From positions 1 through 64,000 of IMG/VR virus record IMGVR_UViG_3300044609_000988: a stretch of 64,000 nucleotides of DNA; one strand, written 5' to 3'. The notes beneath the pieces were generated by a model. The model searched no databases. It was not told the origin of the DNA and was given only the letters and a program-made list of their open reading frames with translations. The DNA comes from a virus. Within the stretch, counting starts at the first letter, position 1. The number at the start of each line of letters is the position of its first letter. This document shows positions 9,231 to 59,916 of this stretch, piece after piece. The position numbers and the translations under genes were made by a program.

Positions 9231-9778
9231 GCAACCCCGTTGATAAATTTCAAACATTTGTTTCCAAGTATCCTAACATATATCAGGATTACCGACAGAA
9301 TGCAATCAAAATTATTGATGCTGCAATCAATGAACAAAACAAACGCAATCGTTTCTCAGCCAAAATGACTACATTCGGTGATGTAATTGGTGATTACATT
9401 CCATATGCTGCTGAAGATAAAGATCTTGAACTTAACAAGTACATTCGAGAAAGAGCATCTGAACTGTTTCGTGATTACATGGGTCATTGGAAAGATCGTA
9501 AAGATGATCTCCCTATTATCATCACAAAAGCTAACTATAGTAAAAAAACTGGAAAAATCCCTAGTTACTACAGTTTGAATACTGATACTACTACAGAGAA
9601 TACTGTTCTTTCTAATTTCATTGAACCAGTGACACAAGAAGTAACAACACAATCATCTGAAGAAAAGAATATTGTACAATTTAATTTGAAAGAACTTCAT
9701 GTACATATCAATGGTGATAGTACAAAGTCAATGAAACTTCAATTGATTGAGAATGGAGTGATTGTTTGTCCTCTGTAG
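9227..9778 (+). CDS. Hypothetical protein
   Basis: A 183-residue protein: a helical N-terminal half (about 1-95, with RERASELFRDYMGHWKDRK), a Ser/Thr-rich linker, and a short beta-like C-terminal part (NLKELHVHINGD, KLQLIENGVIVCPL). It is the longest gene of its operon. No family recognised. Confidence 0.6.
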   Translation: MSNPVDKFQTFVSKYPNIYQDYRQNAIKIIDAAINEQNKRNRFSAKMTTFGDVIGDYIPYAAEDKDLELNKYIRERASELFRDYMGHWKDRKDDLPIIITKANYSKKTGKIPSYYSLNTDTTTENTVLSNFIEPVTQEVTTQSSEEKNIVQFNLKELHVHINGDSTKSMKLQLIENGVIVCPL

Positions 9779-9963
9779 ATCCATTAAAGGTTGGGTTCTA
9801 TCAAGTAGAATATGTCTATCAAAATAGAACCCAATATGCTTGTTATTTCCAATTGGAATCAGCACAAGAAGCAATGATGAAGATGATTTCGAAAGGAATA
9901 CAAGTGAATGGTCTTAGTGAGTATAAACCAAACCCTAGTATAATATCTTATCAAAAGAGATAG
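9766..9963 (+). CDS. Small hypothetical protein, probable TTG start
   Basis: A 65-residue protein read from TTG 9766, overlapping the previous gene by 13 bases; no in-frame ATG exists near the start. The beginning (DPLKVGFYQVEYVYQNRTQ) looks like a beta hairpin and the end is basic (ISYQKR). A CCAATG/CATTGG hairpin (9971-9976 with 9994-9999) follows its stop. The start is uncertain. Confidence 0.5.
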   Translation: MSSVDPLKVGFYQVEYVYQNRTQYACYFQLESAQEAMMKMISKGIQVNGLSEYKPNPSIISYQKR

Positions 9964-10032
9964 GTATTCCCCAATGTTCCGCAAGTATAGAAGCATTGGT
10001 ATAACTAGGATGTTCTCAATGATACCTTTGAG

Positions 10033-10066
10033 TTTTCCACAGCCCTGCGGAAAAACCTGTGGAAAA
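10033..10066. repeat. Inverted pair of TTTTCCACA (DnaA-box-like) sites
   Basis: TTTTCCACA at 10033-10041 and its reverse complement TGTGGAAAA at 10058-10066, 16 bp apart. Each arm extends to AGTTTTCCACAG and CTGTGGAAAACT, a 12-bp perfect inverted repeat. An A/T-rich tract follows directly. It could also fold as a hairpin in RNA or DNA. Confidence 0.6.
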
Positions 10067-10176
10067 CTACTATGTTAATAAATGGTTAAAAAAATATAGG
10101 TAGTGTGCGGTATTGTTCGAGAACCTTCGAGGTCGTTGGGGGCTAAGCCCGCCACCTCTCGAAAGTCAAGGAGTTA

Positions 10177-10213
10177 TGTGACAGTTTTCAAAGTGGCACA
10201 CAGGGGCTTGACA
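10177..10213 (+). promoter_or_regulatory. Dyad operator followed by TTGACA (site D)
   Basis: The 24-bp dyad 10177-10200 (left TGTGACAGT, right AGTGGCACA, centre TTTCAA) is one of the best copies. CAGGGGC then TTGACA (10208-10213) follow with usual spacing, but no good -10 occurs 17 bp later (only TATGCT at 10226-10231, too close). It may be a spare operator or a decayed cassette. Confidence 0.55.
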
Positions 10214-10232
10214 AATAGCCTCACATATGCTT

Positions 10233-10282
10233 CGAGCCACTTCGAGGACTGGCACAGCCCCCCTTGACAACCATCTGTCAAG
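10233..10282 (+). promoter_or_regulatory. Dyad operator with TTGACA inverted repeat (site E)
   Basis: The dyad window 10233-10256 has right arm ACTGGCACA and left arm CGAGCCACT. After CCCCCC comes CTTGACA (10263-10269), repeated inverted as TGTCAAG (10276-10282), so the -35-like box lies in a 7-bp stem. No clear -10 follows. The right arm sits in a TTCGAGGACTGGCACA unit that recurs at site F. Confidence 0.5.
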
Positions 10283-10288
10283 TCCTCC

Positions 10289-10346
10289 TAGGACACTTCG
10301 AGGACTGGCACAGGGGCTTGACAGCCCCAGAAAAACCTGCTATAGT
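10289..10346 (+). promoter_or_regulatory. Dyad operator + hairpin + consensus promoter (site F)
   Basis: The dyad window is 10289-10312 (left TAGGACACT, right ACTGGCACA). GGGGCT (10313-10318) pairs with AGCCCC (10323-10328) around TGAC. TTGACA (10318-10323), 17 bp and TATAGT (10341-10346) form the most consensus-like promoter in the window. Gap from dyad to -10 is 28 bp. It drives the KTSC-like gene at 10479 through a 126-base leader. Confidence 0.8.
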
Positions 10347-10478
10347 GTATTCATGAAGTTGAGGAATTTCAAAAAAGCAGAAATCCCAGAAACTCAAAAA
10401 ACCCAAAAACTTAGATTTTAAGTTTTTTGAGATTTCTCAGAACTTCAATTTTAAACTTTAATCATTAATTGATAAAAC

Positions 10479-10706
10479 ATGAAAACTATCAACAACATTG
10501 AATCGAAAGCCATCAGTGCAGTGAGTGCTGGCGACGACAACATCGTGACCATTACATTCAACAGCGGCAAGAGCTATGATTACCGTGATATCACTGGTAA
10601 TTTTGTAGATTCTGTTGCAAATGCAATTGAAAACAGCCAGAGCGTCGGTCGTTTGTTCAACCGAGCCCTGAAAGAAGATCAGACGCTGCAAATTGTAGCT
10701 GTTTGA
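10479..10706 (+). CDS. KTSC-domain-like small protein
   Basis: A 75-residue protein. SKAISAVSAGDDNIVTITF followed by SGKSYDYRDI, then FVDSVANAIENSQSVGRLFNRAL follows the KTSC pattern (S-x-I, a strand, a G-x-x-Y-x-Y strand, then a helix ending in S-x-G-x-x-F-N). KTSC domains are short and found in phages and bacteria, sometimes fused to lysyl-tRNA synthetase; molecular role unknown. A second KTSC-like protein lies at 15172. The upstream leader is long and structured. Confidence 0.65.
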   Translation: MKTINNIESKAISAVSAGDDNIVTITFNSGKSYDYRDITGNFVDSVANAIENSQSVGRLFNRALKEDQTLQIVAV

Positions 10707-12815: not shown

Positions 12816-13007
12816 ATGTTCGACCTCGCATTTGTCACACCTAAGTCTAAGAAAGCGAAGAACAGATTCGCTAACATGATGAATAGCAACCCCGAGTGTA
12901 TTGTAGAACAGATTAAAGAGAACCGTGTGTTCCTTCGTTCTACTAATGGCAAATACTTTTTTTGGGTTGCTGTAAAGAATGACACAGACTGGAGTGTAGA
13001 CTTCTGA
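12816..13007 (+). CDS. Conserved small basic cyanophage-type protein
   Basis: A 63-residue basic protein: MFDLAFVTPKSKKAKNRFAN, then PECIVEQIKENRVFLRSTNGKYFFWVAV in pieces. The pattern of a basic helix followed by a strand-turn-strand (VFLRST-NGKYFFWV) resembles a small family I recall from cyanophages; function unknown, nucleic-acid binding plausible. It is translated after the 12627 gene, 9 bases away. Confidence 0.65.
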   Translation: MFDLAFVTPKSKKAKNRFANMMNSNPECIVEQIKENRVFLRSTNGKYFFWVAVKNDTDWSVDF

Positions 13008-13010
13008 CCC

Positions 13011-13069
13011 TGTGCCAGTTGGGGCACTGTCCACCAACTGACCCCAGACCCCTCAGGGGGTGCCATACT
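13011..13069 (+). promoter_or_regulatory. Dyad operator in inverted style + CATACT, no -35 (site K)
   Basis: The 24-bp window 13011-13034 reads left TGTGCCAGT and right ACTGTCCAC, i.e. the site A/C type sequence in the opposite orientation, as expected of a symmetric operator. CATACT (13064-13069) lies 29 bp downstream; no -35 match. A GGGGGC/GCCCCC hairpin (13079-13084 with 13091-13096) starts the transcript. Confidence 0.65.
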
Positions 13070-13112
13070 ATGTTCATCGGGGGCAAGAGAGCCCCCACCA
13101 CCACACAGAGCC

Positions 13113-13859
13113 ATGCTTCACTTCTCCAAGGGTAACGCTAAGCTTAACAAAGGCACCCTGATTTTCAGCCTGCCTGCAGGTTCTACCTGCCCTGGTGCTC
13201 TGCAATGCTTCTCTATGGCAGTTGCAGATGAGAACGGCAAGCGTTCTATTGTTGATGGTAAGCACACCGAGTTTCGTTGCTTCGCTGCATCCTCCGAGGT
13301 GCAATATGATGCAGTTTTCCACAACCGCCAACACAACTTTAAAACAATTGTTGAAGCTCTCAAGTCTGGCAATTGTGCTGATCTTATCAACACTGAATTG
13401 CAAAAAGCTCGCAAAAAGTCTACTAAACTCGTCCGAATTCATGAGTCGGGGGACTTCTTCAACGCAGCTTACCTTCAGGCGTGGGTTATGGTTGCTATGC
13501 ACAATCCTGATCTGAAGTTCTACTGCTACAGCAAGAATCTGCCACTGTTTGTTGGTTTGGAGTTGCCCTCTAACTTCTACATGACGGCAAGCTATGGTGG
13601 CAAGTTCGACTACCTGATCGATGAAGGTGTGTTCACTCGCTATAGCAAAGTGTTCATGACAGAAGCAGATGCTAACGCTGCTGGTTTGATTGTTGATCAC
13701 GACGACAGCCACTGTTTCGAGGCTGCACCGTTCGCCCTGCTGGTGCATGGCACCCAACCCAAGGGCAGCGACTGGGGCAAGGCGATCCGCCAGCGTCGGC
13801 AGGCTGGGCAGTTTGGAGGGTATCGCAAGGCGACCGCCAGCCAGCCTGTGACAGTCTGA
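13113..13859 (+). CDS. GP88-family (Gene product 88-like) phage protein
   Basis: A 248-residue protein matching the phage GP88 family layout: LSxGNxKL-like start (FSKGNAKLNKGTLIFSLPAG), then STCPGALQC at about 24-32, FRCFAA near 54-59, RIHESGDFFNAAYLQAW at about 108-124, and LKFYCYSKNLPLF at about 133-145. Conserved Cys residues and the RIHxSGDF motif are family hallmarks; the role is unknown and metal or Fe-S binding by the cysteines is speculative. The sequence becomes clearly GC-rich towards its 3' end. It is a single-gene cassette between sites K and L. Confidence 0.75.
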   Translation: MLHFSKGNAKLNKGTLIFSLPAGSTCPGALQCFSMAVADENGKRSIVDGKHTEFRCFAASSEVQYDAVFHNRQHNFKTIVEALKSGNCADLINTELQKARKKSTKLVRIHESGDFFNAAYLQAWVMVAMHNPDLKFYCYSKNLPLFVGLELPSNFYMTASYGGKFDYLIDEGVFTRYSKVFMTEADANAAGLIVDHDDSHCFEAAPFALLVHGTQPKGSDWGKAIRQRRQAGQFGGYRKATASQPVTV

Positions 13860-13907
13860 CAGGTGGCACACAGGGGGCACCGCTGCCCCCACCCCTGCCT
13901 GTAGACT
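13847..13907 (+). promoter_or_regulatory. Dyad operator + hairpin + TAGACT, no -35 (site L)
   Basis: The dyad 13847-13870 has left TGTGACAGT and right GGTGGCACA. GGGGGC (13873-13878) pairs with GCCCCC (13885-13890); TAGACT (13902-13907) lies 31 bp after the dyad, with no -35. The leader GAGTCAACCACAGA (13912-13925) is nearly identical to those after sites A and P. Confidence 0.65.
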
Positions 13908-13931
13908 GATCGAGTCAACCACAGACGACCC

Positions 13932-14108
13932 ATGAAAACCGCCGAGCGCCTGTCTGCTGCCATCCTCGCTGCTGCTGCCCTGGGAATCGTGGTGGGGCTG
14001 CCGCTGTTCGCTTCCCTGAGGGATGCCAAGGCTCTCCAGAGCACCGCCCCCCTGTGCCACCCCACAGAGCGGCTGAGCGACTGCCTGGATCAGCTGCCCA
14101 CCGTCTAG
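13932..14108 (+). CDS. Small exported or membrane protein, GC-rich
   Basis: A 58-residue protein, ATG 13932 to TAG 14106-14108, starting MKTAERLSAAILAAAALGIV. A basic N-terminus and an Ala-rich hydrophobic segment (about 8-28) look like a signal anchor; two Cys follow in the tail (LCHPTERLSDCLDQL). Codon use is strongly GC-biased, unlike most of the window, which suggests recent origin from a high-GC genome. Confidence 0.6.
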   Translation: MKTAERLSAAILAAAALGIVVGLPLFASLRDAKALQSTAPLCHPTERLSDCLDQLPTV

Positions 14109-14111
14109 ACT
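14053..14111 (+). promoter_or_regulatory. Partial dyad operator + TAGACT inside a coding region (site O)
   Basis: The left arm TGTGCCACC (14053-14061) is intact and the right arm AGCGGCTGA weak, both inside the preceding gene. TAGACT (14106-14111) lies 29 bp after the 24-bp window, the same spacing as elsewhere. No -35. I include it because the position was predicted from the other copies. Confidence 0.45.
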
Positions 14112-14133
14112 AACCACAACGACACCCACCCCC

Positions 14134-14310
14134 ATGCTCAAGACCATCGCCCTGCTCTCCATCGGTGCTGCTCTCTATGCTCCCATCGGGGCTGTGGGTG
14201 CCGCTGCCATCGGGTTCGCTGCTGACACTGTGGGGGCTGTGAACGCCGCCACCGAGCGCCGCTGTGCCACTTACAACAGTGTCCTACCTGGCAGCTGCCA
14301 GCTCCCCTGA
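14134..14310 (+). CDS. Small exported or membrane protein, GC-rich
   Basis: A 58-residue protein, ATG 14134 to TGA 14308-14310, starting MLKTIALLSIGAALYAPIGA. Hydrophobic and Ala/Gly-rich to about residue 40, then a polar tail with two Cys (RRCATYNSV, GSCQLP). Same length and layout (hydrophobic N-terminus, two-Cys tail) as the preceding gene, so the pair could be divergent duplicates; sequence identity is low. Confidence 0.6.
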   Translation: MLKTIALLSIGAALYAPIGAVGAAAIGFAADTVGAVNAATERRCATYNSVLPGSCQLP

Positions 14311-14321
14311 CCCTGTAGACT
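14263..14321 (+). promoter_or_regulatory. Dyad operator + TAGACT inside a coding region (site P)
   Basis: The left arm TGTGCCACT (14263-14271) is perfect; the right arm AGTGTCCTA matches 6 of 9. TAGACT (14316-14321) is 29 bp after the window; no -35. The leader AAGTCAACCACAGA (14326-14339) repeats that of site L. Confidence 0.55.
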
Positions 14322-14348
14322 GATCAAGTCAACCACAGACACCCAACC

Positions 14349-14522
14349 ATGACCCTCGAAGAAGCAAACCAGATCTGGAATGATTGCTACAACAGCAGCG
14401 ATTATTCTCTCTGGGATAAGTACACTTCCCAACAGCGTCTGGATGCAATCGACACCCGCCAACTTGAGCACGAACGTGTAACTGGTGGCTGGGGAGTTTT
14501 CAACATCTCCGACCGTCACTGA
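14349..14522 (+). CDS. Small hypothetical protein
   Basis: A 57-residue protein, ATG 14349 to TGA 14520-14522, starting MTLEEANQIWNDCYNSSDYS and ending WGVFNISDRH. Aromatic and polar. It follows the site P promoter with a short leader; a second small gene follows 24 bases after its stop. No family recognised. Confidence 0.6.
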   Translation: MTLEEANQIWNDCYNSSDYSLWDKYTSQQRLDAIDTRQLEHERVTGGWGVFNISDRH

Positions 14523-14546
14523 TTCACCCACTAACTAACACGAACC

Positions 14547-14696
14547 ATGACCAGCCTCGCTTACACTGACGAGCAACAGATCGACGAGTTGGTATCACAA
14601 ATTATCGAGGATTTTGAAAATCTCGATGATAACGAATCTGAGGAAATCTTGGGAGAATTGGATTCTCTCATAGCACAAATTCTCCAAGATTCGTGA
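14547..14696 (+). CDS. Small very acidic hypothetical protein
   Basis: A 49-residue protein, ATG 14547 to TGA 14694-14696, starting MTSLAYTDEQQIDELVSQII. It is dominated by Asp/Glu (EDFENLDDNESEEILGELD) and ends in a helix. No separate promoter; probably co-transcribed with the 14349 gene. The stop is followed at once by the perfect dyad operator. Confidence 0.55.
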   Translation: MTSLAYTDEQQIDELVSQIIEDFENLDDNESEEILGELDSLIAQILQDS

Positions 14697-14701
14697 TACC
14701 G

Positions 14702-14760
14702 TGTGCCACTAATCAAAGTGGCACAGTAAATCACCATTCCCCCCTCAGCTGTGCCATACT
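14702..14760 (+). promoter_or_regulatory. Perfect dyad operator + CATACT, no -35 (site M)
   Basis: TGTGCCACT (14702-14710), six bases AATCAA, then AGTGGCACA (14717-14725): a perfect 9+9 inverted repeat and the cleanest copy. CATACT (14755-14760) lies 29 bp downstream; the -35 position reads CACCAT, so this promoter should need an activator if used. The leader starts with a CGAGGGG/CCCCTCG hairpin (14769-14775 with 14793-14799). Confidence 0.75.
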
Positions 14761-14812
14761 ATAGGCATCGAGGGGGGAAACGAGTTACCCCACCCCTCGC
14801 ACTTCCAGGACA

Positions 14813-15106
14813 ATGTTCAACAGCACCCGCCTCGCAGTTCTGTTCAACAACCCCACCGATCTTGCGTCCATTCTCATCAACAACCCCCGCAAGATCGGTC
14901 CCCGTCGTGCCACCATCCTGTTCGATCTTGCCACCAGTGGTGATCACAAATCCAACCGCAAGTTGGGTCGGGATGCACTCAAGCAGTGTGCCAAATCTGT
15001 GAACCGTCATCTCAACGTTGATGGCAACATTTGCGACCGAGTGTTCAACAAAGCAAGCAACGCTCGTCTACGCAATTGGGCACAGGATAAGAACACCACG
15101 GTGTAA
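14813..15106 (+). CDS. Basic hypothetical protein
   Basis: A 97-residue basic protein starting MFNSTRLAVLFNNPTDLASI, with Arg/Lys-rich helices (NNPRKIGPRRATILFDLA, SNRKLGRDALKQCAKSVN). It is the single gene of the site M cassette. A GGGGGAGT/ACTCCCCC hairpin (15117-15124 with 15136-15143) follows the stop without a T tract. Nucleic-acid binding is plausible from charge alone. Confidence 0.6.
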   Translation: MFNSTRLAVLFNNPTDLASILINNPRKIGPRRATILFDLATSGDHKSNRKLGRDALKQCAKSVNRHLNVDGNICDRVFNKASNARLRNWAQDKNTTV

Positions 15107-15171
15107 CAAACCCCACGGGGGAGTGAATATAGCTAACTCCCCCATTCCAGTTCTTCTCACTTTTCCTGAAA

Positions 15172-15444
15172 ATGTCCATTTCCTTCAGCATCACCGACTC
15201 CATGCTTTATCGGGAGTTCAGTGTAGATGAATCCTCGGCAATCTACTGCATCTCGGTGTTAGGCAACCACATCACAATCGCCTTCCAGAGTAACACTGAG
15301 AAGCAGTACATCTTCGAGGGCACAGATAGATTCACTGCCCACATTCGTGCCATCCTCACTGACTGGAACCCCGACGAAATTAGCATCGGCTCAGTTATAG
15401 CTAAAGCACGCAAATCTGGAGATCTCAGTATTCTTGAAATCTAA
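15172..15444 (+). CDS. KTSC-domain-like small protein
   Basis: A 90-residue protein with SSAIYCISVLGNHITIAF, KQYIFEGTDRF and IGSVIAKARKSGDL in KTSC order (S-x-I start, strand, Y-x-F strand, helix, and a C-terminal S-x-G...GDL). It is distantly similar in layout to the 10479 product. The function of KTSC domains is unknown. A strong terminator follows 34 bases after the stop. Confidence 0.6.
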   Translation: MSISFSITDSMLYREFSVDESSAIYCISVLGNHITIAFQSNTEKQYIFEGTDRFTAHIRAILTDWNPDEISIGSVIAKARKSGDLSILEI

Positions 15445-15478
15445 CAGTTTCTATTATTAATAGAATTACAGATTTTTT

Positions 15479-15508
15479 AGAGAGTGATAATTATCACTCT
15501 CTTTTTTT
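15479..15508 (+). terminator. Strong terminator, 12-bp perfect stem
   Basis: AGAGAGTGATAA (15479-15490) is directly followed by its reverse complement TTATCACTCTCT (15491-15502) and a run of Ts. The perfect symmetry means it could also terminate in the other direction. Confidence 0.85.
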
Positions 15509-15647
15509 ATTTGCAGAATATAATTATATTTTGTAAATCATATTTGCAGTGTATTAGAATAACAGTGTAATCGTATGTGTGAGTATAAAGAATAAACAGG
15601 TAATTACGATTCAAAGTATAAAGAATTGACAGTTAATCGTAATCGTT

Positions 15648-15665
15648 CGTTAATTATAATTAACG
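15648..15665. repeat. 18-bp perfect palindrome
   Basis: CGTTAATTATAATTAACG is its own reverse complement. It contains TATAAT (15655-15660) on both strands and lies 16 bp after TTGACA (15626-15631), so it may be an operator over a promoter for the 15762 gene; the TTGACA-TATAAT spacing (23 bp) is too long for a standard promoter, while TTAATT gives 18. Confidence 0.6.
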
Positions 15666-15761
15666 TATAGCGAAAGGGGACCCATCGTTCTAAGCTATAA
15701 ACGTTTCCCAGAGCCCTCGAATTATTCCTTTCATTAAAAAAAATTTCCCCCAGAAAAAATC

Positions 15762-16043
15762 ATGAAAAAAGGTCAAAAGTTATCAAATGCCACAACTCGT
15801 TCCCAACAACTCCAAGTTCGCAAAGTCATCAAAGAACAAGCAAAGAAAGAACGTCAAAGAATACGGGAATCTGCTAAGCCACGTAAGCCCTCGAATTCGA
15901 CCACTAGGCGTACCGCATCAAGATCTTCGAATAAATACACATATAGACCAAGCTCCCCAGATATCTTTGATAAGATGCTAGAGGGAATTTGGGATTTCAT
16001 TTTCAATATTGTCCAAAAAATTTCCCAGAAAATTTTCAGCTAA
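15762..16043 (+). CDS. Very basic protein with amphipathic C-terminus
   Basis: A 93-residue protein. Residues 1-65 are extremely rich in Lys, Arg, Ser and Thr (MKKGQKLSNATTRSQQLQVR, EQAKKERQRIRESAKPRKP); residues 66-93 form an amphipathic or membrane-binding helix (FDKMLEGIWDFIFNIVQKI). This suits a protein tying nucleic acid to a membrane or capsid, but no family is recognised. CCCCCAG precedes it rather than a clear ribosome binding site. Confidence 0.55.
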   Translation: MKKGQKLSNATTRSQQLQVRKVIKEQAKKERQRIRESAKPRKPSNSTTRRTASRSSNKYTYRPSSPDIFDKMLEGIWDFIFNIVQKISQKIFS

Positions 16044-17304: not shown

Positions 17305-17697
17305 GTGGCTAAGACTCTTACCTTTAAAGATCTGAATATCACATTTAAGCCTCATCCTATCACTGGCGATCTAATCGTCACCAAGGATGAGGCTGCCATC
17401 AAGCAGTCTGTTGTTAACCTATTGTTAACCAACAGAGGTGAGAGATTTTTCAACGCAAATTTAGGTTCTTCTATTTCTTCATTATTGTTCGAACCTCTTG
17501 ATTATGGTACTGCTGGTATGGTATCAGCAGAGATTGAAAATACTCTGAAAGCATATGAGCCAAGAATTAAAGTTCTTGCAGTGAATACAGTACCTGATTT
17601 TGATCAAAATGGTTTTGATATTGAATTAATCTTCGAAATTATTGGTAGAGAAGACGTTCCACTTAATGTAGCATTTTTCCTAGAGAGAACACGATAA
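17305..17697 (+). CDS. gp25: Baseplate wedge protein gp25
   Basis: A 130-residue protein (T4 gp25 is 132) with the family pattern: an N-terminal KPHPITGDLIVTKDEAAIKQ segment, LLTNRGERFFNANLGSSISS (the hallmark TNxGERFF-like motif), and EIENTLKAYEPRIKV. gp25-like proteins share a fold with T6SS TssE and link gp6 dimers to the sheath start in the baseplate wedge. Translation begins at GTG 17305 since no ATG is available. gp6 follows directly. Confidence 0.92.
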   Translation: MAKTLTFKDLNITFKPHPITGDLIVTKDEAAIKQSVVNLLLTNRGERFFNANLGSSISSLLFEPLDYGTAGMVSAEIENTLKAYEPRIKVLAVNTVPDFDQNGFDIELIFEIIGREDVPLNVAFFLERTR

Positions 17698-19497
17698 ATG
17701 CCATACGCTCAGGTATCTAATTTAGATTTCACACAAATTAAGACTGCACTCAAAGAATATTTGAGAGCGCAGACTAGTTTTACTGATTATGACTTTGAAG
17801 GGTCGGTATGGAGTAATCTGCTTGACGTACTTGCCTATAATACCTACTACACGGCGTTTAACACCAATCTGGTAGTCAATGAGCTATTCCTAGATTCAGC
17901 CACCCTCAGGGACAACGTAGTAGCCTTAGCGAAGCAATTAGGCTACCGTCCCAAGTCAATCACAGCCCCCAAGGCTTTAGTTAGTTTTAATGTCGAATTT
18001 AGTGGCACAGCACCCAAAGAGATTATCCTAAAGAAAGGAACTGGGTTTGTAACATCATTTGACGACAATTTATACCAGTATGTTGCAACTGAAGATCACA
18101 CTGCTTCTGTAGTTAATGGTGAAGCTTCGTTTTCTCAAGTTGCAATTTACGAAGGATCATTAATCACAAATACTTTTACAGTTAATACTGGATTACAAAG
18201 TCAGCGTTTTATTCTCCAAAACCCTGCAATTGATACCACTAGCATTAGAGTTAAAGTATACCCATCAGCTAACGCTACTTCATACAAGATTTACCAACTT
18301 GCTGATAACATTTTAAATATTGACCCATCATCAAATGTTTTCTTTATTGAAGAAATTGAAGATGAAAAATACGAAGTTTTCTTTGGTGATGGTATTTTAG
18401 GTAGAAAATTAGAGAACGGTGAGTATATTGAGATTAGTTATCTCACCACAAACGGTTCTGATACGAATGGAGCTAGATCTTTCACCTTCAGTGGTGTTTT
18501 AGAAGACTTAGAAGAAAATTCAGACTACCCGCTAAGCATTGTTAATGTAACTACTAATGCTGCTGCTAGTGGTGGCGAAGAAGTAGAAAGCATTTCGAAG
18601 ATCAAATTTAATGCTCCGAAGTATTATGGCACTCAAGATCGTGCAGTTACAGCCGCTGATTATGCTGCTATTGTCAGGAATATTTACCCAGCGGTCGCTG
18701 ATATCATTATTTACGGTGGCGAAGAAGCAGAACCACCTGAATATGGTAAAGTAAAGATTTCAATCAAGCCAAATAACTCAGCTGCACTATCTTCATATAC
18801 AAAACAAGAAATTGTACGTGAATTGAAGAAGTATATGGTTGCCTCGGTAACTCCTGAAATTATTAATCCATCTATATTGTATGTTGAGTTATCATCTAAA
18901 ATTTTCTACAACAGACAGATCACAACATTAGTTCCTGAAGAAATTCGTTCAAAAGTAATTTCTGGACTACAAAATTATATTGATACATCTGACGTTGAAA
19001 AATTCAATGGTAAATTTAGATACAGTAAAGCAGTTGGCGTAATTGATGACGCAGACAGGTCAATTAATTCCAACCAAACAACCGTAATGATGAGAAAGGA
19101 TTTTTATCCTTCTATCAACTCAACCTTCTTTTATGAGGTTTGTTTCCAGAACCAATTCTACATTGATTGTGAAGAGCCTGTGATGCAATCATCTGGGTTT
19201 GTTGTTAGCGAATATCCCAATTATACAGTGTATTTGGAAGATAGGGCTGCCAAAATTGTCCTATATAGAATAGACTCTTTAACTGGTGATAAGATTGTTT
19301 TGAACGATTTTGTTGGAGACATAAATTATGAAAAGGGAGAGATTATGCTGTATGATTTAACTATCATAAAAGGTAGTTATTTTGACAATCGAATCGAGAT
19401 TCGTGTAAAACCAGCGTCCAATGATATCAATGCTTTGAGAAATGTATACCTTGACATTGATATTGCAAACAGTAAGTTCATCGCATATCAAGAGTAA
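17698..19497 (+). CDS. gp6: Baseplate wedge protein gp6
   Basis: A 599-residue protein of the gp6/J-like family (T4 gp6 is 660). The N-terminal part has FEGSVWSNLLDVLAYNTYYTAFNTN in pieces and LGYRPKSITAPKALVSF; the middle has KFNAPKYYGTQDRAVTAADY, a family hallmark. gp6 forms the ring that joins baseplate wedges, with gp25 and gp7 as partners. It starts directly after the gp25 stop. A stretch at about 17800-17990 has markedly higher GC and different codons from the rest. Confidence 0.92.
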   Translation: MPYAQVSNLDFTQIKTALKEYLRAQTSFTDYDFEGSVWSNLLDVLAYNTYYTAFNTNLVVNELFLDSATLRDNVVALAKQLGYRPKSITAPKALVSFNVEFSGTAPKEIILKKGTGFVTSFDDNLYQYVATEDHTASVVNGEASFSQVAIYEGSLITNTFTVNTGLQSQRFILQNPAIDTTSIRVKVYPSANATSYKIYQLADNILNIDPSSNVFFIEEIEDEKYEVFFGDGILGRKLENGEYIEISYLTTNGSDTNGARSFTFSGVLEDLEENSDYPLSIVNVTTNAAASGGEEVESISKIKFNAPKYYGTQDRAVTAADYAAIVRNIYPAVADIIIYGGEEAEPPEYGKVKISIKPNNSAALSSYTKQEIVRELKKYMVASVTPEIINPSILYVELSSKIFYNRQITTLVPEEIRSKVISGLQNYIDTSDVEKFNGKFRYSKAVGVIDDADRSINSNQTTVMMRKDFYPSINSTFFYEVCFQNQFYIDCEEPVMQSSGFVVSEYPNYTVYLEDRAAKIVLYRIDSLTGDKIVLNDFVGDINYEKGEIMLYDLTIIKGSYFDNRIEIRVKPASNDINALRNVYLDIDIANSKFIAYQE

Positions 19498-44647: not shown

Positions 44648-47600
44648 ATGAGTTTTCAATTCAATTCTGATAAAGAAATAATTCAGGCAGTTAATCCAAA
44701 ACTCGTTGGTAGTAACGAACTTACTATTAGATCTGGAGAAGGCGCTTCTGAAAAAGAAATTTTTAGAGCACAATTAGATTCTCAAACTGGTTTACCAAGA
44801 GTTGGTATTAACAGAACTGGCAGACGAGTAGAAAGTATTAGGATTAATGAAGGTCAGGGAGGTACTGGTTACACACTAACTCCAAACGTAACTCTAACTG
44901 CACCAGATTTACCAAATGGTATTCAGGCTCTAGCTTCTGCTGTTGTTTTCAATGGCTCTGTTGTTGCTATTATTGTTGATAATTCTGGCGATGGATATTC
45001 GTTAGCTCCTGAAGTAACTATTACTGGAGGAAATGGTTCTGGCGCTGCTGCTACTGCTGTTTTGGACACAGTAGATTTTGAACTCGATATCAACGGTGCT
45101 ATCCGAACATCAACCTCAATTATTTCTGATACTGCTCGCATCTTAAACCTTGATATTGATAATTTTGTTACTCCCGATGCTAGTTTTAGAGCACCAAATT
45201 TAAAAACTTGGGCTAACGGCACTGGTACTCAATTTGTACCAAACGTAGTATTACAAAAAGATTCTTATAGATATGCTGCGGATAATATCTATCAGGCATT
45301 AAACACAGGAACAACAGGCTCTTCATTACCCATCCACAAAGATGGTATCGCTCTAAGTGGAGATGTTCAATTAAAGCATGTTGGTTATAGAGTAAATGAT
45401 GTAAATGCTCCGCACTATTTACAAACTGGAGAATCTGGTTTATTTCCAAGATCAATTACTCCTCTTCTTGGTGATAAATCAGATAAAATTGCTACCACAG
45501 AATATGTTCTGAACCTAGCTACTAATGACGTAGGTGGTCGTGTTTATGTTTCTGCCCAAATTGGTAATGATCAAAATGATGGTCGTTCTGCTGTTGCTCC
45601 AGTAAGAACTATTAAACGTGCTTGCCAAATTGCTTCGGCAACAGTAGGTGTTAAAGAAACTGTTATTATTTCGGGTGGCGACTATGTAGAAGATAACCCA
45701 ATTTCAATTCCAGCAGATTGTTCAATTGTTGGTGACAACTTACGTCTAGTAATTGTCAGACCAGCAAATCCCCGTAAACACATGTTTAAATTTGGGGATA
45801 AAAACTATCTAACAGGTCTTGTTTTCAGAGATCAAATTGATAGTAATGGGGATCCTGTGGCAACATGGGATTACGCCATGGTCTTTGATGACAAGCAAAG
45901 AATTTATTATGATTCTACTACTGGAGGAGATTTCGGAAGAAGCTTTCCGATTGGTCATCAAATTTTTGGACCACCTAGAATTAGAGTATCATTCCAAAAC
46001 CACACTGGCGGAACAGAATTAATTGCTGGGTTGAGCGTAAGTGGTATTAACACTGGCGCTTCGGGTTTAATTGCTGGCGTCACTTTTGAATCTACAACTG
46101 GCCCCGATGCTTATGTAAATGGTACAATTGATGTTGATATTACCAGTGGTTCGTTCAACAACGGAGAAACATTTGAATATACAGTAGGTATTGCTCCAGC
46201 ACAGCAAACATATGATTTCATTTCTACTGATATTACATCAATTAGAGCTGAAGGAGAAGTTGTATCTAATAACAAAGATTTAGCAATATCTTTACCAATT
46301 GTACGTATTGATTTTTCTCAACAAGGGACCGCAGAAACTTCCGAAGGGGGTTTCCAGTATGATCCAGCAGAGGATAATTCGGGTGGTATTGTTTTCTACA
46401 CCAACGCTCTAGTTGGTAGACAAAATACTCATGACTTTAAGGAAGGACAGCAAATTGAAATTCAAGGTCTCCCTATATCAGGACCAGATCTTTCTTATTT
46501 AAATGGCAAGCAAAGAATTTATAAAATTCTTCGTGATGCTGATGGAAGATCTAGAAGATTTGTTATTCAAAATAAACAAGATGAAAGTTTAACAGATTCT
46601 AATTTTATTCCAAATAATGCTTCTGTAAAATCATATGATTATTCTGTAACAGTATCTCTATTAAACTCACCAAACAAATTTGGGGTTGCTGAGTCAGTTT
46701 CCAGAAGATTTCAGGATGCTTGTATCTTAATTCGTAATAATATTCCTTTTATTGTTGATGAAGCTTATCTACAAATTAAAGATGAATTTGAGTATCTTGC
46801 TGTCCCAAATGAACAAAAATGTCGTAGAGATATTGGTCATTTTCTAAATGCTCTCATTCGTGACTTAGAATATGGAAGCAATTACCACACAATTGAAGCA
46901 GCTCAAACATATATTCAAAATGCTCAAATTGGATATTTGGGTAATGAAATTACCGAATCAGTAAGAGCATACGAGATCGCTAAAGATCTTGCTATCTTAG
47001 CGATGAGAAGATGGAGAACTGGCAATGGTCAACTTGCCAATTCATTATACACTCCACTATATTCATCGATTACTAGATATTTTGACCCAACTGTTATTCA
47101 AGACACTCTGGGAGCGGCCTGTGAGGACGTAGCAAGCGCCATCAATACCCTTGGGTATCTTTTTGTTGCAGTAATCACAAACAACGCTGTAGACCGTTAT
47201 CTAGACGCCTCAGAGCTGATTGCTCGTAATACTGATTTGATTGCCGAAGAAGCGGTAGGTTTTGTGCGAGCACAATATCCTGATCTTAATTTAAACCAAG
47301 ATAACTCAGAATCAAACAGATTTGTAGATGCAGCAAATTTAATTTTTGCTAACAAAGATGAAATTCAAGATAAAGCATTAGCACAAATTTCTGTAGAGTA
47401 TAGCGAAGCATCTTGGGGTACTGATTGGGTTATTCCTGGTGATACAATTAACCAAGACAATAAGAGAAACTTAGATTCTTATAGATTAATTCAAAAAAAT
47501 AGAACAGAAATTGTTAATAGTTCTTGGACACAATTAATTGCTCAATATCCAGGAGTAAGTACAACAGAAACTAAGTGCAAGAGAGACATTGGCTACTTTG

Positions 47601-50600: not shown

Positions 50601-53600
50601 CTGTAAATACCTCTGCTAATAATATTAATAATTGGGTATCACTTTCAACTACACAAATTTCTGCTACTGATATTACTTCTGGCGTTATTTCTACATCAAG
50701 ACTTGCTAATAACTCAGATGCTGCTAACTCATTTACTTTCTTAAGAGGAGATCAAAGCTATGCTCCTGTTCTTCAGTCGATTAAAGGAGCAGAAGTAAGA
50801 TACTTTGCTAAGCTAATTCAGCAAGCAAATACTGGATCTTCTCAGTTAGTATTCAGCACAAATTCCAATACATTACTTGGTCACTCAGTTATTGATAATG
50901 TATCTGGTATTGCTCCAAATACCAATATAACTGGCGTATTGAGTGCTGCTGGTATTACTACTGTATCGATCAATAATCCATTATCTCAAAATATTCCTTC
51001 AGGAACAATTATAGAATTTTTGAGAGGCGCTTCTCCACTTACTTTTGAATCATCTTTAACACAAGGTAATTTTGTTGATAACATTGTTGTTTCTAATGGA
51101 GGTTCTGGTTATACCAGTGGTCAATATTTTGATGTTCCATTAACAGGCGGTTCTGGAACAGGACTACGTTGTAATATTATTGTTTCTGGAGGTTCTGTTA
51201 CAGAAGTAACAACCACTAATAGTGGTCAAAATTACACAGGCGACTTTAATATCACTTCTTCTCCTGCTGCTATTGGTCCAGGATCTGGATTAGTTTTAGC
51301 AGCTAAAATTAGCACTGTTAATCGTCAATATGCCAATACTTCAATAGACATTCAAAGAGTTAGTGATCTAACAATTTCGGCAGACCCATTCGGTACGGTT
51401 GGTGTTTCTAGATTCCTTAAGTCACAATTTATTATTGGTCAAGCTGGAAACGGTTCCATTCAATTAAAAACTGGTCCTGATAGTGGTCTTGATGCTGACT
51501 TACTTGATGGTGCTCAGGGTGCTTTCTATCTAAATGCCAGTAACCTAAACTCTGGTACTGTATCAACAGATCGTCTATCTGGAACATACAACATAAGTAT
51601 TTCTGGACAATCTGGTAATACATTACGTCTAATTTCATCAACTTCAAACCCAACTTCAAACCCATCACCTAGCAATTTCGCTACTGGTGTTATCACTGAT
51701 ACAAAAAATAATAGCTCCGATGGTTTGAATGATGGTGGCTCAAGACACCTAGTAATGTCCATCAGAAATGGTGGTGCTGGATTTGACGCTACCTTCGGTG
51801 GTGTTAGACAACTAGCATTTACTGATAATGATAATATGTGGCTTCGTGGTTCTGGCACGGGGGTAAGTGAATTTGGCTCATGGGGTAAAGTTTGGACTTC
51901 ACTTAATGACGGTCCAGGAACTGATATGGATGCCGATAAACTTGATAACCGTCAAGGTACATGGTATCAAAATGCTTTAAATATTAACTTCGGAACTCTC
52001 AGTGATAATAGATTACCAACATATCAAACCACAAAGAGTTTCAACAGTTCCATTAAACTTTTAACAACTACAAATAATCCAAGATATAAAATTTATGTCA
52101 GCGGTTTATTATTAACAACTGCCCCATTCCTTGCTGGTTTAGAAGTTAATCTGTATAATGCCAATGCTCAAGGAACAGGAACAATTTTAATTACAAATAT
52201 TGAGACATTTGATGATGCTAATGATAACAATAATGATTACACTATCATTACTGGTTCTTTACAAACAGGCACATTTATCGGAGCCCTAACAATTGGTACA
52301 GCAAGTAACAGAATTACATTCCAAGATTTCAGTCTTGATGCAACTGGCACTTTCCAAACCGCTTCGCTTGATAGTGATGGTGGCATTGCTAGATTAAAAC
52401 TGGGTAGAAAAGATGGCACTGCTTCAGCTCCAGCTATTTACTTCAATTCTAGCCAATTAGCAGCTACAAATTATAATGCTGCTATTGTATCTTCTGGAGG
52501 AAATGCTACTGATGGTAGTGGTACATTAAATGTACTTGTAGCTAGTGCTAATGGATTAACAGTTAATAACAACACTGTTTGGAACGCTGGAAATGTAACG
52601 TTCAATAGCACTAATGTTTTAAGCACTGCAGTTATTCGTGATGCGTCTGGCAACTTTGCTGCTGGTACTATTACCGCTGCTTTAACTGGCGCTGCTTCGG
52701 CAAACGTCTTAAAGGCTGGCGATACCATGACTGGTTCGCTAACAATTAGCGGAGCAAGTAGTAATTTAAGTGTCGGCGGAACTCTTGGGGTTACAGGTAA
52801 TACTACTTTATCTGGTAGCTTGACGGTTGACACAAATACTTTATTTGTTGACTCTACGAATAATAGGGTTGGTATTGGAACAAATTCTCCTGTTGGTCCA
52901 TTATCACTTGATGTTAATGGAAAAGGAAGATTTATTGGCAATGCAGAAAATGGCAATGGTGGATATGCTTTATCTGTATGGGCTACAGGAGCATCTCAAA
53001 ATACAGGTATTTCGTTCTACCCAACATTTGATAATTTCCCTTCTGATACTGGCCCAAGAAGAGCAGTTGATTTAATTGCTGGATTTGATGGTGGAACATG
53101 GGAAACACAATATTTTGCCATTCACGTTGGTGGTTCTGGTGGAAATGATGTTCAAAATATCACAACAGAAAGATTAAGAATTATAAACACAGGTGAAGTT
53201 GGTATTGGAAGAACACCAGCAACTGGTTATTCATTAGATATTAATGGAAAGGCAAGAGTATCTACTGGATTTGAAATTGATAATAGTCTCGATAATTCAG
53301 GTGCTCCATTATTCTTCTTTGGTTCTTCGTCAGCAAGAAACTTTAGAATTGGTAACCAGTTACTTGTTAATGATGTATTTGAAATCACGCCATCAACTAC
53401 AGGTGGTGGTGCTACATTCACAACGCCAGCATTTTCTATTCGTGGTGCTGATGGTAATGTTGCTATTGGTTCAACTACATTTGCTAATCCAGGAAATACT
53501 ATTCAATATAAATTAAATGTTGCTGGTAATATTAACTTCACTGGAACTCTTTATCAAAATAATGAAGCTTTTGTAACTTCTAGATGGACTGCTTCATCGA

Positions 53601-53895: not shown

Positions 53896-54777
53896 ATGGA
53901 TCCAATTTCTTCAAAATTAACATCTAATAACATTAATATCTCCAGGGGATTAATTTTACCTGTTTACACCAATGACCCTGGGGATGGCAACCCAGGGGAG
54001 ATTATTTATGTTAATGGACAATTAAAATATTATAGAGAAGGAAAATGGTTATTCATAACTGATGGAAAGAAAGATGGATTGACAGAAGCCACTGCTGTTG
54101 ACAAATCAACAGATATTCTTGTAGCAAATCCATCTGCTCCCAGTGGTTGGTATTGGATAAAAACAAATAATGTAGCTAGACAATATTGGGTAGATAATAC
54201 CTATGATGGTGGTGGATGGGTTTTGGTTGGCAGTCACCCAATTAATGTTTCAATTCAAGCTTTAACATATGCTCAAGCGGCAGAATCTTATTCAGGAAAT
54301 GCTTCTTCTACATATGGAACAGGAGATCCAAAATCATATTCTGTTTGGGTTGGATTAAATGGATGGGATGCTATTGCTACAGCAAACGCTGCTGGCAGAA
54401 ATTTTGTTTATTACACCGCTAATTCTCAAGTTTCTTTGGGATCTACTGCTTCGCATGTTAGAAGAAGTAGATGGAAGTGGAGCGGATGGAATTCTTTATA
54501 TTCTTGGAATAATGCCAACACTTTAATTAATGAAGTTGGTGCTTCTACTCCAGGTTTATGGTATTATCATATGTCATATAATTTCACTACATATGACAGA
54601 GACCAAGATGCTTATAGTGCTAATTGTGCTACTCTTTATAATAATGCTCCTTGGTGGTATGGAGCTTGTTGGGATGGCAATTTTTGGGGAGGAAATGGAA
54701 GTGGATATGCTAACGCTGCTTTCTGGACAGGTTCTGGAGGAGATTATTACAACTATGGAGCAATGTACGTAAAATGA
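53896..54777 (+). CDS. Fibre-tip adhesin with fibrinogen-like C-terminal domain (copy 1)
   Basis: A 293-residue protein. Residues 5-58 are the shared cassette (SKLTSNNINISRGLILPVY, then GEIIYVNGQLKYYREGKW). From about 80 it follows the fibrinogen C-terminal pattern: GWYWIKTNN, QYWVDNTYDGGGWVLVGS, and near the end DAYSANCATLYNNAPWWYGA then CWDGNFWGG and GAMYVK. The paired Cys flanking the WWY motif is typical of that lectin fold, which binds acetylated sugars in animal ficolins. Here it probably recognises host surface glycans. Copies 2 and 3 lie downstream. Confidence 0.75.
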   Translation: MDPISSKLTSNNINISRGLILPVYTNDPGDGNPGEIIYVNGQLKYYREGKWLFITDGKKDGLTEATAVDKSTDILVANPSAPSGWYWIKTNNVARQYWVDNTYDGGGWVLVGSHPINVSIQALTYAQAAESYSGNASSTYGTGDPKSYSVWVGLNGWDAIATANAAGRNFVYYTANSQVSLGSTASHVRRSRWKWSGWNSLYSWNNANTLINEVGASTPGLWYYHMSYNFTTYDRDQDAYSANCATLYNNAPWWYGACWDGNFWGGNGSGYANAAFWTGSGGDYYNYGAMYVK

Positions 54778-55019
54778 AAAAACCCTGTAATAGACTTAAA
54801 ATAGCAAAAAACAAAATTGATGTTGATTCTGAAGGAATGTTTACTTATATCTTTGAATGGTATAATAATGAAAAATTAATGATACAAGAACCATACAAAA
54901 TTCAATCAGATAATTATGGATTACCAATTGAAAATTATAATATTAATGAAATGATCGAACATAAACAATATTGTTGTTTAGAAATAGATTCAAATACTCT
55001 AAAAATAGAAGAAATTTAA
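54774..55019 (+). CDS. Small hypothetical protein between adhesin genes
   Basis: An 81-residue protein starting MKKPCNRLKIAKNKIDVDSE, joined to the first adhesin by an ATGA overlap; the third copy of the adhesin lacks such a partner. A possible assembly helper for the adhesin, by analogy with small fibre chaperones encoded directly after adhesins; this is inference only. Very AT-rich. Confidence 0.5.
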   Translation: MKKPCNRLKIAKNKIDVDSEGMFTYIFEWYNNEKLMIQEPYKIQSDNYGLPIENYNINEMIEHKQYCCLEIDSNTLKIEEI

Positions 55020-55023
55020 TCCA

Positions 55024-55947
55024 ATGGCAGCCAATTCAAAATTAACATCCAACAACATTAATATCACCAAGGGATTAATTTTACCTGTATATGACGTAGA
55101 TCCTGGTGATGGCAATGCGGGAGAGATTGCTTATGTTAATGGACAATTAAAATATTATGTCGGTGGAAAATGGACATTCATAACAGAAGGCAAAGATGGG
55201 TCTACTGCTGATAGAGCAGCTGAGTCAGCATCGGCAATTCTCGCAATAAATCCCTCTGCTTCTGATGGCGTTTATTGGATTAATTTACCTACGGCTGGAC
55301 CAACACAAGTCTATTGTATTATGAATAATTCATATAATGGAGGTGGATGGATGATGGCAATGAAAGCAACTAGAGGAACAACTTTCAATTTCAACGCAAA
55401 TTATTGGACAACAACAAATACATTAAATCCAACTCAAACAAATATTAATGATGGGGATGCAAAATTTGAAACCTTCAACAGATTTGAAGCAAAAGATATT
55501 TTAGCAGTTTGGCCAGATTTAACAGCAAACTCAGGTTGTTTTAATGTTTCTAGGGGGCATATTTGGTTGGAAAATAGTTTTTGGCAGGGAGGAACTAAAA
55601 TTACTTTAACAAATCTGTTTAATACAGCTAATGAATATTTTATTCGGGATGCTAATAATTTCTGTGGCATCAACCAATTTTCTCGCCAAACTGATGTTAG
55701 ATTTTATGGATTTAATTATTCAAATGATCAAAATTTAGCTAGGACTAGGTGGGGATTTGGTTGGAATGAAAATGGAGGTGGCCTTTGGCCGAATGGAAAT
55801 CAAGGAAGTGATGATGTATCGGGTGGTATTGGTATGACAGGAACTCAACAAGGACAGGTCAATTATTCTGCTGGAGATTTTATTGGTTGCTGTCAAAGTG
55901 TCACGGGATTTAATAGATCAGCAAGAGTAGAGATTTATGTCAGATAA
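55024..55947 (+). CDS. Fibre-tip adhesin with fibrinogen-like domain (copy 2)
   Basis: A 307-residue protein. The N-terminal cassette (SKLTSNNINITKGLILPVYD, then GEIAYVNGQLKYYVGGKWTF) is nearly the same as in copies 1 and 3. GVYWINLPTAGPTQVYCIMN and YNGGGWMMAMKA (about 83-115) are clear fibrinogen-like entry motifs; the middle and end are different from copy 1 (FIRDANNFCGINQFSRQTDV, CCQSVTGFNRSARVEIYVR). The shared head with variable tip implies interchangeable receptor binding. Confidence 0.75.
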   Translation: MAANSKLTSNNINITKGLILPVYDVDPGDGNAGEIAYVNGQLKYYVGGKWTFITEGKDGSTADRAAESASAILAINPSASDGVYWINLPTAGPTQVYCIMNNSYNGGGWMMAMKATRGTTFNFNANYWTTTNTLNPTQTNINDGDAKFETFNRFEAKDILAVWPDLTANSGCFNVSRGHIWLENSFWQGGTKITLTNLFNTANEYFIRDANNFCGINQFSRQTDVRFYGFNYSNDQNLARTRWGFGWNENGGGLWPNGNQGSDDVSGGIGMTGTQQGQVNYSAGDFIGCCQSVTGFNRSARVEIYVR

Positions 55948-56002
55948 TATGAATCTTTCAAATTACAAAATATCGTTGATTAATTAAAAATTAATAATTT
56001 TA

Positions 56003-56848
56003 ATGGATAATTCAAAATTAACATCTAACAACATTAATATCACCAAGGGATTAATTTTACCTGTGTATGACGTAGATCCTGGTGACGGTACTATGGGGGA
56101 AATTGTTTATGTCAATGGACAATTAAAATATTATGTGGGTGGAAAATGGACATTCATAACTGATGGAAAAATAGGAACATCAGCTAGTTCACCTGCATTA
56201 AACGCAGCTCAAATTAGAGCTGCTGGGATAAGTGCTGATGGTGATTACTGGTATCAACCAACAGGGGCATCGTCACCGATTCAGTTGTATACAAATTTTT
56301 CAAATGCTCCAGCAGGAAAAGGTTATGTTCTCGTTGCTAGAGGAAGAGAATCTACTGATTGGTGGAATACTAACGGACAAAATACTTCCGCTTTAACATC
56401 ATCTTCATTAGATACAAATACACCAATTGCTGTTCTTCCAAACACATTTGTGAATGGTTTAATTAATAATCAGTGGAATGGAATGAGATTCATAACAAAT
56501 AGAAGAAATGGAGCAGATTCTTGGTTATTTGTTGGAACCCAAAGCACTACTTTTAGTTGGACTTATTTTCAGCAATCTGGATCTAGCGTTTCAGCTACTG
56601 CTCAACAATTTAATGGAGTATTTTTATCTGGTGGAGCACGAATAACATATGGATCTGGAATATATTGGACAGATACTTTAAATTATGGAAATGGTAATAA
56701 CTGCGATAGAACATTTACTTGGTCATGGGGAGGTCATGGATCTTGGCAAGGGTGGTCTGGTGGATCTTCATGTACTCCAACTGGATCTTTCCAACTTGGA
56801 GGTGAAGGTCACGCACTTCAATTAGTAAATTGCTACGTAGAGTGCTAA
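56003..56848 (+). CDS. Fibre-tip adhesin (copy 3)
   Basis: A 281-residue protein with the same N-terminal cassette (SKLTSNNINITKGLILPVYD; GEIVYVNGQLKYYVGGKWTF). The entry segment is divergent (ISADGDYWYQPTGASSPIQL, KGYVLVARGRESTDWW) and the tip is Trp/Gly/Ser-rich (FTWSWGGHGSWQGWSGGSSC), ending in NCYVEC. It probably shares the fold of copies 1 and 2 but with a third specificity. Confidence 0.7.
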   Translation: MDNSKLTSNNINITKGLILPVYDVDPGDGTMGEIVYVNGQLKYYVGGKWTFITDGKIGTSASSPALNAAQIRAAGISADGDYWYQPTGASSPIQLYTNFSNAPAGKGYVLVARGRESTDWWNTNGQNTSALTSSSLDTNTPIAVLPNTFVNGLINNQWNGMRFITNRRNGADSWLFVGTQSTTFSWTYFQQSGSSVSATAQQFNGVFLSGGARITYGSGIYWTDTLNYGNGNNCDRTFTWSWGGHGSWQGWSGGSSCTPTGSFQLGGEGHALQLVNCYVEC

Positions 56849-56877
56849 ATTATAATTATAATTATAATTAATAAATA
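56849..56877 (+). promoter_or_regulatory. AATTAT tandem repeat and late motif ATAAATA
   Basis: An (ATTATA)-type tandem repeat of about four units (56849-56870) runs into ATAAATA (56871-56877), 24 bases before ATG 56902. It marks the start of the glycine-rich adhesin unit. Confidence 0.5.
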
Positions 56878-56901
56878 TTTTAACGGAATAGAGTGTCATT
56901 T

Positions 56902-57957
56902 ATGTCTACATTAAATGTCGGTATTTTAAATGCCAGTAACAGAATAAAACTTCCTATACTCACAACTACCCAAAGAAATTCTTTGGCGCTTGAAGTGGGA
57001 TTGATGATTTTTAATTCTACTGCCAGTGAAGTTCAATTTTATAATGGAACTGAGTGGATAAATCCAGGCAAAGGTAAACTTAGTGCTACTGGAGGAGTTA
57101 TTACTACAGCTGGATTATATAAAGTTCACACATTTACAGGTAATGGGTCTTTTGTACTTACGGGAAGTGGGTTGGTAGAATATTTAATCGTTGCTGGTGG
57201 TGGCGGCGGCGGTTCTGATATGGGTGGCGGCGGTGGAGCTGGTGGAGTAATTATTGGTTCTACAACTTTATCATCTGGAACATATCCAATAACAGTTGGT
57301 GGAGGAGGCAGTGGTGCTCCTGCAGGAGTAGGACAAGTTAGAGGAACTAACGGAAATCCCTCAACTTTTAATAATTTAACAGCTATTGGTGGTGGTGGCG
57401 GTGCTAGTTGCCATGATAGATCAACAAGCCCAGCAGGAAATGGTGGATCAGGAGGAGGAGCATCTGGCGGAGGAACTCTTCCTAGTGGAGGATCTGGAGG
57501 TGGTGGATACGGGGGAGGAATTAGAGGATTAGGAACTCCTGGTCAAGGAAATGATGGAGGGTCAGGAATATATGCTTGGTATCCTGGCGGCGGTGGTGGT
57601 GCTGGAGCTGCTGGAACAAACAACCCAGCAACTGGTGGCGTTGGAGTGCAAAGTTCTATTCTAGGTGTTTCTTACTTCTGGGGCGGCGGCGGCGGCGGAT
57701 CTGGATATTCTGCAGGCGGAGGAAATGGTGGTAATGGTGGCGGCGGCGGTGGAGCCGTAAACGTTACTTCTGGCGGTTCTGGATTAAATAATGGATCCCC
57801 TGGTGGTGGAGGAAGTCCAAATTCACAAACCAATAGGCCTGGAGGTAATGGTGGCGCCAACACTGGTGGCGGCGGTGGTGGTGGTAGTCACTACAGTGCT
57901 AATAATTTTGGCGGTACTGGTGGTTCTGGAATAGTTGTAGTAAGATACTTAGCATAA
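56902..57957 (+). CDS. Glycine-rich fibre adhesin (copy 1)
   Basis: A 351-residue protein from ATG 56902; I reject the in-frame GTG at 56893 because the paralogue downstream starts at the equivalent MSxLNVGI. The N-terminal 70 residues contain LPILTTTQRNSLALEVGLMI and FNSTASEVQFYNGTEWI; then ITTAGLYKVHTFTGNGSFVL leads into glycine-rich arrays (about 95-345), with runs such as GGGGGGSDMGGGGGAGGVII. Such arrays form polyglycine II lattices in gp38-type receptor-binding adhesins. Host recognition is the likely role. Confidence 0.75.
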   Translation: MSTLNVGILNASNRIKLPILTTTQRNSLALEVGLMIFNSTASEVQFYNGTEWINPGKGKLSATGGVITTAGLYKVHTFTGNGSFVLTGSGLVEYLIVAGGGGGGSDMGGGGGAGGVIIGSTTLSSGTYPITVGGGGSGAPAGVGQVRGTNGNPSTFNNLTAIGGGGGASCHDRSTSPAGNGGSGGGASGGGTLPSGGSGGGGYGGGIRGLGTPGQGNDGGSGIYAWYPGGGGGAGAAGTNNPATGGVGVQSSILGVSYFWGGGGGGSGYSAGGGNGGNGGGGGGAVNVTSGGSGLNNGSPGGGGSPNSQTNRPGGNGGANTGGGGGGGSHYSANNFGGTGGSGIVVVRYLA

Positions 57958-57960
57958 ATA
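57953..57960 (+). promoter_or_regulatory. Late-promoter motif CATAAATA
   Basis: CATAAATA overlaps the stop codon of the first glycine-rich gene and lies 36 bases before the second. Confidence 0.5.
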
Positions 57961-57996
57961 ATTATTAATGCAATACGATAATTTTGAGGATATTTC

Positions 57997-59079: not shown

Positions 59080-59097
59080 TATAAAGGAGAATTAAAA

Positions 59098-59487: not shown

Positions 59488-59496
59488 TTTAGTATT

Positions 59497-59694
59497 ATGA
59501 AAAAAACATATGTATTGGTAGGTGTTAATACTGCCATTTCTTTACTAAGACCAGGAGCACAATTTTGTCTATCAAACACAAATTTTATTGAGTGGAATGA
59601 TCCAAGACCAGCTCCATCTTGGGACGAAATAATGGAAACTGTATCAAAAATTAAAGAATTTGAAGATACAATACAATCCATAGAATTAGAATAA
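59497..59694 (+). CDS. Small hypothetical protein
   Basis: A 65-residue protein starting MKKTYVLVGVNTAISLLRPG; the segment FIEWNDPRPAPSWDEIMETV resembles the ends of phage fibre-assembly-type proteins (W-x-x-P-x-P-x-W-x-E-I), followed by a helix. An assembly role beside the adhesin genes is plausible but unproven. Confidence 0.55.
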   Translation: MKKTYVLVGVNTAISLLRPGAQFCLSNTNFIEWNDPRPAPSWDEIMETVSKIKEFEDTIQSIELE

Positions 59695-59697
59695 ATA
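59691..59697 (+). promoter_or_regulatory. Late-promoter motif ATAAATA
   Basis: ATAAATA overlaps the previous stop codon and lies 29 bases before ATG 59727. Confidence 0.5.
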
Positions 59698-59909: not shown

Positions 59910-59916
59910 CCTCAAG

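Follow-up and report, generated by a model that had tools for sequence, protein, structure and literature searches.

Features of the gap in the window

The window analysed here comprises the first 64,000 nucleotides of a virus record that is 81,108 bases long. The gp6 and gp15 domains of tail genes are encoded in it, and they support the T4-like identity that the original prediction had assumed. A gap without called genes spans positions 9964-10478, holds DnaA-type boxes and is flanked by two small genes (Table 1). The upstream gene was rejected as a linkage marker, because it belongs to a large family whose relatives are located mostly away from the element described below. With regard to base composition, GC content rises to 0.55 and GC skew is negative at 13001-16000 of the window, and GC skew rises to 0.31 at 54001-60000.

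Table 1. Features in and around the gap (window coordinates)
Feature	Position	Strand	Remarks
Upstream small gene	9766..9963	+	phrog_13402; function not known
Perfect 12-bp inverted repeat	10031..10068		Encloses the outer boxes; arms 10031-10042 and 10057-10068
Exact DnaA-type box TTTTCCACA, left	10033..10041	+	Converging
Near-box TGCGGAAAA	10046..10054	-	1 mismatch; 12 bp from right box
Exact DnaA-type box (inverse of TTTTCCACA), right	10058..10066	-	Best conserved of the three
Conserved A/T tract AAATGGTTAAAAAAATATAGGTA	10080..10102		Candidate DNA-unwinding element; also in box-less S-RSM4
Conserved block	10135..10153		Family form GTTGTTGTCTTAGCACGCC; window form GTTGGGGGCTAAGCCCGCC
Putative leftward promoter-like pair	10141..10169	-	TTGACT (10169-10164), 17 bp, TTAGCC (10146-10141)
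Sigma-70 early-type promoter TTGACA-17-TATAGT	10318..10346	+	Preceded by TGGCACA module
Downstream small gene, KTSC-like	10479..10706	+	Domain match below the Pfam cut-off

As had been predicted, the two exact boxes converge within a perfect inverted repeat, with 16 bp between them (25 bp from start to start). The near-box, which that prediction did not include, stands in tandem with the right box at 12 bp; its homologous place is occupied by an exact TGTGGAAAA in most relatives. A single TTTTCCACA is not rare in the window (three against 1.3 expected). A pair of TTTTCCACA within 30 bp was found in none of 400 dinucleotide-preserving shuffles of the window. The A/T-rich stretch described beside the boxes was also confirmed, since 10068-10104 is 81% A/T. 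Its least stable 25-bp segment is at the 99.4th percentile of the whole window, but at the 100-bp scale the stretch reaches only the 20th.

According to the alignment of 21 elements, the boxes, the A/T tract, the block GTTGTNGTCTTAGCACGC and TGTCAA follow each other in a conserved order. Read on the minus strand, the block and TGTCAA give TTGACA-17-TGCTAAGAC (also given as TTGACA-17-TAAGAC) in most relatives inspected, a better promoter-like pair than that of the window. The CTTAGCACGC block thus forms part of the leftward pair, which would direct transcription across the A/T tract and into the boxes. The -10 hexamer of this pair is a weak match across the relatives and is poorest in the window. 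The parts conserved in the family are two boxes (tandem or converging), the AAATGGTTAAAAAAATATAGGTA tract, the CTTAGCACGC block and the rightward sigma-70 promoter. In the window, the latter is a member of the early-promoter module that is repeated in this phage. Between 1748 and 14716, about ten copies of A(A/C/G)TGGCACA precede TATAAT-like hexamers by a few tens of bp. A structured RNA was considered for the element and rejected: 0 conserved base pairs were obtained on 21 sequences, and no Rfam match was found in the window.

Conservation and variation among T4-like cyanophages

At least 20 genomes of T4-like cyanophage isolates, which represent many genera, carry the same intergenic element, and it is usually the main box cluster of the genome. 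The presence of the element in many related viruses indicates that it is real. In a blastn search, the intergenic region matched S-PM2, Sf-FR1, S-CAM1, S-CAM3, Sf-CH11, S-RIM32, DSL-LC02 and DSL-LC03, and according to whole-genome counts in the phages found by blastn, the clustered boxes are located at this element. The best conserved part of the alignment is the core TTGTGGAAAAACCTGTGGAAAA with the A/T tract; the left inverted box varies. In S-PM2 (AJ630128), tRNA genes are annotated at 17414-19333, two of them over the element, which lies at 19.2 kb. These tRNA genes are not in the sequence there; ARAGORN located the set at 163.4-165.3 kb, about 145,968 bases beyond the annotated place, and thus the tRNA coordinates of AJ630128 are displaced.

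In order to lessen selection bias, 12 Kyanoviridae genomes were picked by accession, regardless of boxes. A box pair within 35 bp was detected in Syn9, P-SSM7, P-TIM68, S-SM1, S-SM2, S-ShM2, Syn19 and Syn33, and no box cluster was detected in P-SSM2, P-SSM4, P-RSM4 and S-SSM7. A cluster in 8 of the 12 genomes compares with 0.03 expected from box numbers under random box placement, an expectation that ignores common descent and rejects chance, not shared ancestry. P-HM1 and P-HM2, which are outside Kyanoviridae according to their records, are also without a cluster. Where a record starts at gp59 or close to it, the cluster is mostly located about 46-61 kb away from this gene. Contigs were also collected through the downstream KTSC gene with no use of the boxes, and in all six of them the cluster lies about 410-470 bp upstream of the gene.

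The original prediction depended on the pair being present in close relatives. Cyanobacterial-type boxes are indeed shared by the relatives of this T4-like phage, and the finding survives. The inverted arrangement itself, however, is not what has been conserved: in its place, two or three boxes in tandem are found in many relatives, and some relatives have no boxes. In most relatives, the genome has no more than two or three boxes. In several genomes the main array is followed, about 0.2-1.1 kb downstream, by a second box array (S-RIM32, 61859-61880; S-CREM1, 88401-88432; P-SSM7, 46602-46631; S-ShM2, 53068-53092; contigs L192 and L194); that of DSL-LC03 (80507-80579) consists of five boxes, 0.4 kb downstream of the element. 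Clustered TGTGGAAAA tandem boxes were also seen in other virus contigs that do not clearly belong to this type of element (L022/L083, of which L083 comes from a 284-kb contig, L064 and L077).

Converging boxes are spaced by 12-14, 23-25 or 31-34 bp, with no intermediate values. The converging boxes had not been selected for; the p-value of the phasing is inflated by kinship among the sequences. Tandem boxes mostly follow each other at 12 bp, a spacing on which most of the contigs concerned had been selected. Helically phased spacings of the converging boxes would place proteins in contact on one face of the DNA; the phasing therefore points to a multiprotein complex at the boxes.

In the case of S-RSM4 (about 140.2 kb, minus strand), the A/T tract and the block are kept and the boxes are absent. 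Contigs L161, L163 and L176 similarly keep the downstream part of the element without boxes. In these four, the box position is occupied by another inverted repeat, GTTCTCAATA...TATTGAGAAT or similar, and the boxes are therefore an exchangeable module. Such an exchange is compatible with a changed initiator, but also with a regulatory role.

Candidate ligand and comparison with known systems

In cyanobacteria, the DnaA box is the 9-mer TTTTCCACA, which is supported by experiments in Anabaena and Cyanothece (PMC4674748). In 28 Cyanobiaceae dnaN loci, 17 exact boxes were found in 13 loci, solely within 400 bp upstream of dnaN, and some of them are followed by the DnaA-trio-like CTACTAC. A phage-encoded DnaA was considered and rejected, as PF00308 is absent from the phage's own contig and the DNA-binding domain of DnaA (PF08299) is absent from all 20 phage records tested. 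As the box is of the cyanobacterial type and occurs at host dnaN, and the phages tested have no DnaA of their own, host DnaA is the likely ligand.

The phage element shares with cyanobacterial oriC (upstream of dnaN in S. elongatus, Anabaena 7120 and Cyanothece 51142) the clustered TTTTCCACA boxes in non-coding DNA beside an A/T-rich region. In contrast, the phage element has neither a dnaA or dnaN neighbour nor a DnaA-trio, its conserved boxes have the A/T tract on the opposite side, and its 12-bp tandem spacing was not seen in the host regions inspected. Mimicry of the host oriC layout was rejected, because the box spacing differs and the arrangement is no copy of the host origin.

In T4, the minimal origins oriF and oriG are each made up of a promoter plus an unwinding element rich in A/T, and oriE apparently relies on an early promoter; the review of T4 origins does not mention DnaA (PMC3016281). 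The phage element resembles oriF and oriG in its size of about 100-150 bp, in the promoter-like site reading into the A/T tract and in the T4-type replisome; R-loop priming is a feature of oriF and oriG in T4. The T4 promoters are MotA middle promoters, whereas cyanomyoviruses have the T4 replisome and no motA (PMC2984593). For Syn9, a single theta origin was predicted by Weigele 2007, as cited in PMC2984593, where the citing passage gives no place for it. Syn9 carries the present element at 52565-52597.

Possible roles of the element

We tentatively propose, with a little less than even confidence, that a conserved nucleoprotein element of T4-like cyanophages extends from 10031 to about 10170 and serves as an early origin of replication at which host DnaA assists. 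Host DnaA would bind the two or three helically phased boxes. Then DnaA, transcription from the leftward sigma-70-like promoter, or both, would open the adjacent A/T tract, and the phage gp59/gp41 helicase system and the replisome would be loaded on the opened DNA. The scheme would be similar to that of T4 oriF, with host DnaA and an early-type promoter replacing MotA. The proposal builds on directly supported features, namely the sequence parts, their conservation, the helical phasing, the lack of a DnaA domain in the phages tested and the box at host dnaN. From these we infer DnaA binding, unwinding, transcription and origin activity at the element. The place of the cluster relative to gp59, the extra box arrays within about 1 kb, the leftward promoter-like pair of most relatives inspected, the make-up of the T4 origins, the theta origin predicted for Syn9 and the lack of a consensus RNA structure also speak for an origin.

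Several results count against an origin. Above all, S-RSM4, L161, L163 and L176 lack the boxes yet keep the rest partly or wholly. P-SSM2, P-SSM4, P-RSM4 and S-SSM7 have no cluster. The leftward -10 is poor. GC skew, which had been suggested as a check, gave no support: neither a minimum nor a consistent switch was observed at the element in the complete genomes of S-PM2, Syn9 and DSL-LC03. No conserved DnaA-trio was found on the 3' side of TTTTCCACA in the 21 aligned elements, and the conserved TTTTCCACA boxes have the A/T tract on their 5' side, while the trio of the host is on the 3' side.

A chance match with no function is extremely improbable. A single TTTTCCACA is about as frequent in the window as expected, but the shuffles, the family-wide conservation and the helical phasing all disagree with chance, and the conservation already refutes it. 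Alternatively, bound host DnaA might regulate the flanking promoters and couple early phage genes to the DnaA state. The element adjoins both the leftward promoter-like pair and the strong rightward early promoter, and its 12-bp tandem 9-mers resemble the E. coli nrdAB control region. We nevertheless regard this role as rather unlikely, because in the window about 250 bp separate the boxes from the rightward -35, the adjoining genes are small and of no known function, and the secondary arrays up to 1 kb away would be left unexplained.

A binder other than DnaA, from phage or host, might share the 9-mer by coincidence. The box-less relatives carry a different inverted repeat at the box place, so another protein could serve the slot. 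However, the 9-mer is identical to the host DnaA box and is present upstream of host dnaN, which makes such a coincidence unlikely. The boxes have also been proposed as a decoy, in which phage copies would titrate or inactivate host DnaA and halt the initiation of host replication. The titration site datA of E. coli contains multiple DnaA boxes and an IHF site and stimulates the hydrolysis of DnaA-ATP. The phage element is similar to it as a strong DnaA-box cluster outside an origin; datA works with IHF and additional boxes, and the comparison with the phage element covered the box count. The exact and phased boxes, the extra arrays in some genomes and the titration by surplus DnaA boxes documented in E. 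coli (PMC5835720) would fit a decoy. We consider it quite improbable, however, because of the small number of boxes in most relatives, and because a pure sponge leaves the A/T tract and the CTTAGCACGC block unexplained, both of which persist in the box-less S-RSM4.

Returning to an origin assisted by host DnaA, a broader form of this proposal is possible, if doubtful: the whole family of lytic T4-like phages would start replication at a conserved host-DnaA origin with a modular initiator slot, in which S-RSM4-type lineages would have swapped the boxes for another inverted repeat and kept the tract and the block. On how T4-like cyanophages begin DNA replication, we know of one theta-origin prediction, and we know of no dependence of textbook T4 on a host initiator. 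A search of the open-access literature found no earlier report of the element; the Syn9 prediction possibly represents partial prior knowledge of it. The element is a precise and conserved candidate, about 150 bp long, that exists in natural tandem, converging and box-less variants and makes the question of the replication start directly testable. T4-like cyanophages are abundant ocean viruses, and the element hints at a possible dependence of a lytic T4-type phage on the initiator of its host.
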